NCBI GenBank assembly: GCA_009599575.1
Contig: VWND01000003.1
Span: forward strand, 372,001 to 436,000
DNA from: Blumeriella jaapii
Lineage: Eukaryota > Ascomycota > Leotiomycetes > Helotiales > Drepanopezizaceae
Reading direction: 5' to 3'
DNA length: 64,000 bases
Numbering within the stretch: position 1 is the stretch's first letter; every line of letters begins with the position of its first letter. The notes beneath the pieces are model-generated. The model did no database searches. It was given only the letters and a program-made list of their open reading frames with translations, and was not told the origin of the DNA. This document shows positions 20,393 to 23,285 of the stretch, one piece after another. A program made the position numbers and the translations under genes.

Positions 20393-21463
20393 GGCTGGTT
20401 TGAGCTGATGCCTATCCGTCGTCTTTAACATGTTCTATGCACCCCATCGTTTCTATAAACCAGAAGTCTCGATTAGGGCTCACACCTGAATCACAACATT
20501 CCTTCTGCACCACGGGCGTGTAGTAAGGCTGCAAGAATACCTTCAAATATGATCAAAATCTGGGTCCCGAACCGCTTCCCATCTCATTGACAACGGACCC
20601 ATAACTCACATGCAAGAAATTCCTCACTAGTCTATCTCTGCAAAATTGCTTTTCCCCTATGGGATCAATTATGGCCTCACGAACGGAGGGATCCGACGCT
20701 CTTATGTAGGTAGCTGATGTAATTCTCGCCAACACAACGTCGATCCCACATTTTATTATTCGCGTCGAACAAGCATTCGAAAGTAAAGTCAACCATGGGC
20801 CCATGGAACAGCCCAACTCCGCAGTTTTACAATACAGCCTGAGGATGCGGTGAACAACCGGTCGTACAAGTTGTCGACTTGGAGTTACTGTACGCGTGCA
20901 GATGACCAGATCCTCGCACGATCAGCAAACAGCCATCCTACCACATCACACCCGTCTCCTGGGGGGGGGGGGGAACCAACGGCCGCACGCAGCCCCTCCT
21001 CCTTTCCACCGAGATCTCGCAAGCAATGGATACTGGATCTTCACTCGCAGCATGCAAAGTTGCAGAAGCGATCGTGATCTTGAGCTTGCGTTGTGGAGGA
21101 AAGATTCATGCGTGGGCCTTGAATCGGTCTTGAGTTTGAAGCAGCGTGGATTGGCGACGAGCCGAAAGGGGAGTGCTTGGTCTGGTTCTCCGCCGGATAG
21201 CTAGGGCTTTCGACATGCCAGTACTGTCGAGACACATTCTCTCCAAATCTAATGTGTATATATTTCTCTCGATCCAACATTTTCCCCAACCAAGAGTTTT
21301 GGTGGTAAATAGTACAGAGAAGTACAGTACAGTACAGCATGTATTGTACAGTACAGTACGTGGCTGGCTCGCTTGTGACCCCGCACCGCGGTCTGACCTG
21401 CATTTTTCTCGCTGGGTATTATAACCACGGTCCACCTTCTTGACCAACACATCTTTAAGAAGA
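20393..21463. other. Intergenic spacer upstream of the tRNA gene
   Basis: Contains a 12-base poly-G run at about 20960-20971 and GTACAGTAC repeats at 21321-21360. No coding feature is seen. Confidence 0.5.
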
Positions 21464-21470
21464 CCCTCGG

Positions 21471-21482
21471 TCGTCTAGTTGG
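21471..21482 (+). promoter_or_regulatory. Pol III A box in tRNA-Tyr
   Basis: TCGTCTAGTTGG fits the internal A-box pattern TRGYNNARNNGG loosely and sits at the expected D-arm position. It is inferred from position and sequence only. Confidence 0.6.
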
Positions 21483-21502
21483 TTTATGGCGTCGGACTGT
21501 AA

Positions 21503-21514
21503 TTGTTCAGTAGC
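21503..21514 (+). other. Canonical 12-nt tRNA intron
   Basis: TTGTTCAGTAGC lies between base 37 (A21502) and base 38 (A21515) of tRNA-Tyr, the usual place for fungal nuclear tRNA introns cut by the tRNA splicing endonuclease. Removal leaves a seven-base anticodon loop closed by a five-pair stem. Confidence 0.8.
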
Positions 21515-21529
21515 ATCCGAATGTCGCGT

Positions 21530-21583
21530 GTACGTGCACCAGCTCATCATAATCTCCTCAGACAGCTGCTAACAGCTGTACAG
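21530..21583 (+). other. 54-nt spliceosomal-type intron inside the T stem of tRNA-Tyr
   Basis: The segment begins GTACGT, contains GCTAAC (21568-21573) with the branch A 11 nt before the end, and finishes ACAG. Its length and signals match the protein-gene introns in this window, such as the GTACGT introns of the eL43, ABC transporter and NiCoT genes. It splits the T stem between the fourth and fifth pairs, and its removal restores all five pairs. The branch site sits in the loop of a 7-bp hairpin (ACAGCTG at 21562-21568 with CAGCTGT at 21573-21579). The two intron ends can pair over five bases (TGTAC with GTACA). Confidence 0.75.
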
Positions 21584-21592
21584 GTTCGACTC
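21582..21592 (+). promoter_or_regulatory. Pol III B box, partly supplied by the intron's last bases
   Basis: AGGTTCGACTC matches the B-box core GGTTCGANTCC well. The first AG comes from the 3' end of the 54-nt insertion; without the insertion the same position would read TGTTCGACTC. Confidence 0.6.
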
Positions 21593-21611
21593 ACGCCTGA
21601 GGGAAATCCAA

Positions 21612-21621
21612 TTTTTTTTTT
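21612..21621 (+). terminator. Pol III oligo-T terminator of tRNA-Tyr
   Basis: Ten consecutive Ts begin seven bases after the discriminator base, as expected for RNA polymerase III termination. Confidence 0.85.
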
Positions 21622-23285
21622 GCATTTTTCCTTTGCACTTTTTTTAGGGAGGGCTCCAGTTGTTAAATATAGCATGCTGCTTGACAAGACGGACCCCGCT
21701 TCAGTCGAGGATTGAGGAATACTTGGTGCAGCGGCAGAGCACAGTAGTTCATTAGTACTTTACGATGTACATCTGTGTGTACGGTGCTATACTGTATTGT
21801 AAAATGAATATTACTTTTTGATGTACGTACAGTAAGTATAGTGTAAATTGTGTCTACGATAATCCGTAACCGGATGGTCGTAGACTACCCCCTTCCGACA
21901 GAGCTGCGCATACACAAGAAGCACTGCAAAAATATCAATCACGGCTTTTCAAATGCTATATATTCCCTCACCAAAACATCATCACCTTGTGTTAACGACG
22001 CCTAGTTTATCCCCGGCCCGATACAATTAGTGAGAAAGGCAGCTTTACTAAGCAAGAAGGTCAGAAGACTAAACTCGAATACCAATGTACTAACGTTGGT
22101 ACATCTGAACGACGGTTCTCGTATAATGTATGCGAATACTGCGATCGCTTATGTTTGTGTCGCAGGCCGCAAGACACGGAGACTTTGGAGGAGGATGTGG
22201 CCGGCCGCTGTGACGGACCGGTTCTCTACTACCAGCAGGTAGGAGTAGGAGTAGAAGTACGGCTGGACCGACATGTAGCACGCTACTGCCTCGGCCTTGC
22301 GCTGGTTGAGAAACAGCGTCAAGGCCAGGGGCAGGAACATGAGCACTTGTCTTCTCTTTCCGCCGAAGACACGGGAGACATCTTCGGGGGAGATTCTGTA
22401 CCACGAGCCACGTTTGGTGTATACTGAAACTGTTGTTGCACACAAGCGACTGACTGGGCTCTAGCGATGGAACCCCAGCGATGGCGTTCAGCGACGAGCC
22501 CACCCTCACTTTTCAGCCGCGCAAAATGGGAATCGGAGTAGGTTAAAGCTCCCGAAGAAACAGGATAAGACAGAAATCCTTTCGAACCATGATGTTCTGG
22601 GTGAGAGGTGAAGCGAGAATGGCCTGCCCCAAGTTAGAGTTTGGCGAGGTACTGTAAATATTGACTTCGTTGACTTCGTCGAGAGAAAACAGCACTGGGG
22701 AAGTACTGTACTGTACTGTAGAGTGGCAATGGGGTGTCATTGTTTATGCTTCTGAAATCAGCCATCTCTTGTTTATGCAACATGTCTGACTCGACTGATT
22801 CGAGCAAAGAAAGGAAGAAAGGAAGAGAGAAAGAAAGAAAGAAAGGAGGAAAGAAAGAAAGGAGGAAAGAAAGAAAGGAGGAAAGAAAGAAAGGAGGAAA
22901 GAAAGAACATTCCATCTCCAGCAAGGATTGCGGTCCTTTCACTGGAAGGAATGGCAGCCACACGAATAGCTGATACTGGTCTGAACCCCATTGTCTGGTT
23001 CGCCGTTCTCATCACCCCACGCCTGTGTAGAAGCCCAAAAGCATGCCACTTCTCATCGACGGAGAGAAACGCGGACCACGTGACTGAGCCTAGAGCTCAT
23101 CGTCGCCATGATCTTCCCTCTTCCCTCTTGCTCTCTTCCCTCTTCCTCTCTTGCCTGAATGCACACCTCTTCATCAACATTCACACACATTCCCGGGTCC
23201 GTGCAAGCTTCTTCCCACTGTACCATAGATACCAAACAAGACCACCTACGTTACACGCCTCGCTTCATTTCATCGGCCATCCACC
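21622..23285. other. Intergenic spacer
   Basis: No supported gene. It holds GTACTGTAC runs near 22705-22722 and a homopurine microsatellite (22805-22910). Small open frames at 22090-22509 on the minus strand include a short hydrophobic stretch but no recognisable family. Confidence 0.5.
22805..22910 (+). repeat. Homopurine GAAAGAAAGGAG microsatellite
   Basis: About 105 bases of almost pure A/G on the plus strand, built from GAAA and GGAG units with a roughly 16-base higher-order period. Confidence 0.9.

Follow-up and report, generated by a model that had tools for sequence, protein, structure and literature searches.

The gene described here, a tRNA-Tyr(GTA) gene located on the forward strand at positions 21464–21604 of the window (the whole analyzed stretch of 64,000 nucleotides from Blumeriella jaapii), is interrupted twice, by an intron in the anticodon loop and by an insert in the T-stem. 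At the level of the sequence, there is good support for assigning the 54-nt insert as a spliceosomal-type intron of the T arm. The gene is probably spliced and functional, with the 54-nt intron removed by the spliceosome before the tRNA endonuclease (SEN) acts. A little more cautiously, we lean toward regarding it as the first working nuclear tRNA gene, within the literature searched, whose precursor would depend on the spliceosome for the T arm and also on the tRNA endonuclease for the anticodon arm. The original prediction had proposed the spliceosomal-type intron and left undecided whether it is spliced or has silenced the gene; the first part stands as far as the sequence goes, and the second appears to tip toward splicing.

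Organization of the tRNA-Tyr gene

All elements described below are on the forward strand. Exon block 1 (21464–21529) comprises the 5' strand of the acceptor stem, the D arm, the anticodon arm with the GTA anticodon and a SEN-type intron, the variable loop, and bases 1–4 of the T-stem. Exon block 2 (21584–21604) starts with the last base of the 5' strand of the T-stem and continues through the T loop and the 3' strands of the T-stem and the acceptor stem to the discriminator A73. The SEN-type intron in the anticodon loop is 12 nt long (TTGTTCAGTAGC, 21503–21514), as delineated by ARAGORN and by comparison with the paralogous genes, and the 54-nt GT-AG intron of the mRNA type (21530–21583) is placed in the T-stem between Sprinzl positions 52 and 53. 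The limits of the gene, the insert, and the exons had been proposed earlier at these same positions, and they hold in both the sequence and the ARAGORN output.

When the intact 142 nt were submitted to ARAGORN with anticodon-loop introns allowed, no tRNA was returned. With the 54-nt insert omitted, the program found a tRNA-Tyr(gta) of 75 bases in which all five T-stem pairs form and a 12-nt intron interrupts the anticodon loop, and the same tRNA-Tyr(gta) was obtained with both introns omitted. These runs bear out the earlier claims that a cloverleaf forms only without 21530–21583 and that removal of this segment restores all five pairs of the T-stem. The tRNA model of Rfam gives a full-length match to 21464–21604 in which the insert is accommodated as a gap, scoring 25.4 bits vs. 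the gathering score of 29; the gene is missed by Rfam at gathering scores, as well as by ARAGORN in its bacterial setting. Its identity is indicated by the cloverleaf, the GTA anticodon, the C1-G72 pair, and A73, the last two being tyrosine identity elements. The minimum-free-energy fold of the mature tRNA is not the cloverleaf (−29.8 vs. −23.6 kcal/mol), and since the cloverleaf is not the most stable fold of either paralog (−32.2 vs. −27.2 and −26.4 vs. −24.0 kcal/mol), this property is uninformative on the window copy.

The T-arm insert and the mRNA introns of the genome

The insert was compared with 43 putative mRNA introns collected from 204,954 bases of the genome (36 loci, some overlapping), chosen by open frames and motif scoring with a branch motif required at 4–25 nt, so that the consensus of this set is partly circular. 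The 5' splice site of the insert, GTACGT (21530–21535), is together with GTGAGT the commonest one in the set, each being present in six introns. The branch-site sequence GCTAAC (21568–21573) lies 10 nt before the end of the intron, within the range of 4–19 nt seen in the 43 putative introns; the exact hexamer is found in two of them and GCTGAC in 11. The 3' splice site, ACAG (21580–21583), is shared with 7/43, and the length of 54 nt falls within the range of the mRNA introns (shortest 44, median 73, with 15/43 not exceeding 60 nt). The GT-AG ends together with the 5' site, branch distance, and length match those of a U2-type spliceosomal intron. The original prediction had named the same 5' site, branch sequence, 3' end, and mRNA-intron size, all of which are confirmed, and had placed the branch sequence 11 nt from the end, which is corrected here to 10 nt.

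The junction of the insert can slide by 2 nt, creating three registers, of which one has GT-AG ends. The frequency of chance matches was estimated from distinct sequences of the genome with the insert itself excluded. Among 372,085 54-mers, none matched a strict version of the intron pattern and four matched a looser one; with lengths of 50–58 pooled, there were four strict and 48 looser matches in 3,348,727 sequences, some of which may be real introns. At boundaries fixed by the cloverleaf, the expected frequency of chance matches over the three registers is 3.6e-6 for the strict pattern and 4.3e-5 for the looser one.

A 7-bp hairpin predicted in the insert has the branch site at its loop, which speaks against the proposed splicing, although the stability of the insert fold is not unusual (z −1.18). 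The insert shares the absence of TTTT with 34 of the 43 putative mRNA introns, and therefore nothing follows on selection against T runs in it. Two other kinds of insert were considered. An introner-like element would be expected in many near-identical copies; a DNA search of the genome, which skips very common words, matched the insert only to itself. The catalytic core of group I and group II introns comprises a few hundred nucleotides; the insert has 54, and no such family was found in the Rfam scan of 21300–21750 at E ≤10.

Promoter and terminator signals

The region TCGTCTAGTTGG (21471–21482), identical in both tRNA-Tyr paralogs, and GGTTCGACTC (21583–21592) are taken by us, on the basis of the box consensus, as the A and B boxes, respectively. 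The B box is complete in the unspliced gene, since the last G of the intron, which is also the first G of this box, occupies the position that is T52 in the spliced tRNA. The distance from A to B is 112 bp, and the gene spans 141 nt up to A73, compared with 116 nt for the longest of 39 other tRNA genes (37 listed by Rfam and the two tRNA-Tyr paralogs). Upstream of the gene are the elements ATTTTT (21402–21407) and TATAAC (21420–21425), the latter placing a TATA at −44; in the paralogs it is found at −34 and −43. A TATA starting between −25 and −55 is present in 17 of 40 tRNA genes, the window gene included, vs. 4.8% of 34-nt background stretches. T runs within the gene do not exceed three residues, and ten T (T10, 21612–21621), a terminator of the Pol III type, follow on its 3' side. 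The mRNA-type intron is thus located inside a predicted Pol III gene that has both promoter and terminator signals.

The 37 genes come from a list of 60 Rfam tRNA matches, which is incomplete, since both tRNA-Tyr paralogs are absent from it. The remaining 23 matches, on a contig of 91.7 kb (C36) taken as mitochondrial, were left out. Several of them are repeated about 61.4 kb apart, and C36 may be a circular mitochondrial genome whose assembly ran on beyond its starting point.

Introns in U6 and other structured RNAs

The same genome has an mRNA-type intron of 51 nt in U6, inserted between ATTTGGTC and AATTTGAAAC (L088:207–257, corresponding to about 1619206–1619256 of contig C7). In other fungal U6 genes, ATTTGGTC presumably stands directly before AATTTGAAAC. 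The order of elements at this locus is GCCTTCGGGCATTTGGTC, then the 51 nt with GTAAGT, TACTAAC, and CATCAG at the 5' site, branch region, and 3' end, and then AATTTGAAACGATACAGAGAAG. The Rfam match to U6 starts inside the intron, whose end is used by the alignment to form the 5' stem, two of the pairs being non-standard. A single copy of U6 was detected by the Rfam match and the DNA search; since U6 is essential, its intron is presumably spliced, and very likely, judging by this locus, the fungus already splices one Pol III transcript. No intron was seen in the gene of the SRP RNA, the match to which covers 295 nt vs. 293 positions of the model.

Spliceosomal introns in the rDNA of ascomycetes were reportedly described by Bhattacharya et al. 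in 2000. They resemble the present case as mRNA-type introns in a non-coding structured RNA, although their host is ribosomal RNA, transcribed by another polymerase. The U6 of fission yeast carries an mRNA-type intron, according to an excerpt of PMC10484740. In a corresponding excerpt of PMC5832005, normal spliceosomal introns are given for 138 of 310 fungal U3 snoRNA genes, and, among small structured RNAs, only U3 and U6 are said to be known as frequent hosts of introns. Similarly to the fungal U6 introns, the insert in tRNA-Tyr combines GT-AG ends with a branch site in a small structured RNA gene of the Pol III type, although its host is a tRNA with a second intron, of the SEN kind, in the same gene. 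The U3 introns, as that excerpt presents them, are likewise ordinary introns of the spliceosomal type within a small structured RNA, whereas they reside in another class of host RNA, and tRNA-Tyr is a single case vs. 138/310.

Paralogous genes and the possibility of silencing

Two further tRNA-Tyr genes are present in the genome, both lacking the insert and carrying anticodon introns of 13 and 12 nt in the same place. The total of three rests on two DNA searches of the genome; an earlier pattern search for tRNA-Tyr had matched 173 places. According to the original prediction, several intact tRNA-Tyr copies elsewhere, together with transcripts that are either only unspliced or lacking, would mark the gene as a disrupted pseudogene, and the first half of this combination, two intact copies, is indeed found. 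With two uninterrupted genes available, the window gene may be dispensable.

The three genes differ at eight of the 75 mature positions, all of which belong to four compensated stem pairs (acceptor 4-71 and 5-70, T-stem 52-66 and 54-64, in linear numbering), and no difference is seen among them at unpaired mature positions. Only two bases are private to the window copy. They form the T-stem pair 54-64 (Sprinzl 52-62), which is T-A vs. C-G in the paralogs, and the two halves of this pair flank the insert. Such a pattern suggests that the lineage of the window copy was under selection after the split of the paralogs, unless T-A is the older state. The comparison may accommodate the origin of the compensated pair either before or after the insertion. 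Signs of a pseudogene, such as one-sided stem changes or a lost promoter or terminator, were not found in the window gene when compared with its paralogs.

Further cases were sought in the whole genome (47.4 Mb in 91 contigs) with a pattern consisting of a branch site, AG, and a B box, such as a GT-AG intron immediately preceding the T loop would produce, that is, at one insertion position. The branch patterns CTAAC, CTGAY, and CTAAT yielded three, eight, and two places, respectively, which is no overall excess over the seven, seven, and nine of the reversed controls. Eleven of the 12 places outside the window gene were scanned with Rfam at E ≤10 and none matched a tRNA, the twelfth (L101), which overlaps L100, having been left out of the scan; since the window gene itself reached only E 0.34 there, weaker tRNAs could be missed.

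The most serious alternative to a spliced gene is that a recent insertion of a real mRNA-type intron silenced this copy, splicing being absent or inefficient and the gene a young pseudogene, which we regard as possible, though doubtful. The two intact tRNA-Tyr genes would cover for such a loss, and no second tRNA with an insert next to the T loop emerged from the limited genome search; in addition, according to an excerpt of PMC4090602, a eukaryotic tRNA gene with a short insertion in its D or T arm is likely to be a pseudogene when it is one of many synonymous genes. This alternative is opposed by the lack of one-sided stem changes and of changes at unpaired positions relative to the paralogs, by the promoter elements, terminator, and splice signals, all of which are in place, and by U6, a Pol III gene in which an intron of this kind persists in the same genome. 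The absence of decay, the promoter elements, the terminator, and the U6 intron tip the balance toward a working, spliced gene.

Comparison with other tRNA introns

Introns at sites other than 37/38, including the T arm, occur in tRNAs of archaea, nucleomorphs, and Cyanidioschyzon, as stated in an excerpt of PMC4090602. The same excerpt ties the non-canonical introns of archaea and red algae to bulge-helix-bulge (BHB) motifs and the tRNA endonuclease, reports excision of T-arm introns from nucleomorph tRNAs as seen by RT-PCR, and gives the introns of the Guillardia nucleomorph as 3–24 nt long, with their splicing unexplained. The insert in tRNA-Tyr is likewise located outside 37/38, but it has 54 nt and mRNA splice signals, and no BHB was found at its junctions.

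We consider it very improbable that the insert is removed by SEN in the manner of the non-canonical tRNA introns of archaea and perhaps of red algae and nucleomorphs, even though T-arm introns are excised from nucleomorph tRNAs in the RT-PCR experiments of that excerpt. The position of the insert at Sprinzl 52/53 is not that of SEN and the BHB motif (37/38), the 12-nt intron being the one that sits in the anticodon loop. No BHB is present in any of the three registers, with two of four central pairs in each and at most two of four pairs in the flanking helices. The mirror form of the motif has two, two, and three of four central pairs across the registers, the last value being the one that could speak for SEN. 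The 39 other tRNA genes contain 25 canonical introns called by ARAGORN, the isotype and intron calls being doubtful for some of these genes (for example, a tRNA-SeC); GT-AG ends are found in none of the 25 and a branch-like motif in one, and the mRNA splice signals of the insert do not occur together in any of them.

Still less credible is the notion that the GT-AG intron is part of an overlapping transcript made by Pol II, with the tRNA reading incidental. The splice signals would suit such a transcript equally well, but the ends of the intron coincide with the junction defined by the tRNA, which has promoter elements and a terminator of its own; no ORF of at least 200 aa extends over the locus, a cut-off that spliced short exons would escape. 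An artefact of assembly or collapse is just as hard to credit, since no other sequence of the assembly matches the insert and a coherent intron anatomy would hardly arise in this way.

Proposed pathway and its implications

The features read directly in the DNA are the two inserts, the cloverleaf obtained after their removal, the splice and branch motifs, the promoter and terminator elements, the lack of decay, and the U6 intron. From them we infer the transcription, splicing, order of steps, and function of the window tRNA-Tyr. In the proposed pathway, TFIIIC would bind the A and B boxes. Transcription by Pol III would continue across the insert, in which there is no T run, and terminate at T10. 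In the nucleus, the 54-nt GT-AG intron would next be removed by the major spliceosome, in the way that U6 precursors are spliced, and the T arm would thereby be restored. The remaining steps toward the mature tRNA-Tyr, namely processing of the ends, export, and cleavage of the 12-nt intron by SEN, could take place only after this. A normal T arm is required by the enzymes that process the ends and by the export receptor, and the insert prevents its formation; the spliceosome should therefore act first.

If the gene is spliced as proposed, a single tRNA is handled successively by two splicing machines unrelated to each other, and one tRNA isodecoder depends on the spliceosome, linking the supply of tRNA to it. 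A tRNA would then join the structured RNAs colonized by spliceosomal introns in fungi. Even if the gene has been silenced, the insertion would still document the gain of an intron at a precisely defined point of a tRNA gene, and the locus makes intron gain testable. The precision of a GT-AG insertion in the T-stem, where no coding frame could select it, points to reverse splicing or to another mechanism of comparable exactness. A cDNA of the mature tRNA would be an unlikely donor, given that the anticodon intron, the promoter elements, and the terminator are all retained.

In the open-licence literature searched (titles and starts of abstracts), none of the matches listed reports a nuclear tRNA gene with a spliceosomal intron. 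A tRNA as the host of an mRNA-type intron thus appears to be new, the kind of intron itself being known from U6, U3, and rDNA. An excerpt of the description of tRNAscan-SE 2.0 presents the examination of noncanonical introns as a step applied to archaeal-model candidates; on that description, eukaryotic cases may lie undetected, and they could be revealed by searching fungal genomes with a model that tolerates a gap in the T arm.

The mL46 protein encoded in the window shares 61% identity with Drepanopeziza brunnea, 57% with Marssonina coronariae, and 58% with Diplocarpon rosae, all members of the Helotiales. Two minor observations concern other DNA of this genome. Short GTACAGTAC/GTACTGTAC repeats recur in the intergenic DNA of the window, at 21310–21362 and elsewhere. 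The locus C15:712150–712280 (L047) includes an imperfect inverted repeat of roughly 12 bp, a CTAAC...GTTAG arm, and GGTTCAAATCC; no Rfam tRNA match is present there at E ≤10, and by eye the locus resembles a degenerate class II tRNA.
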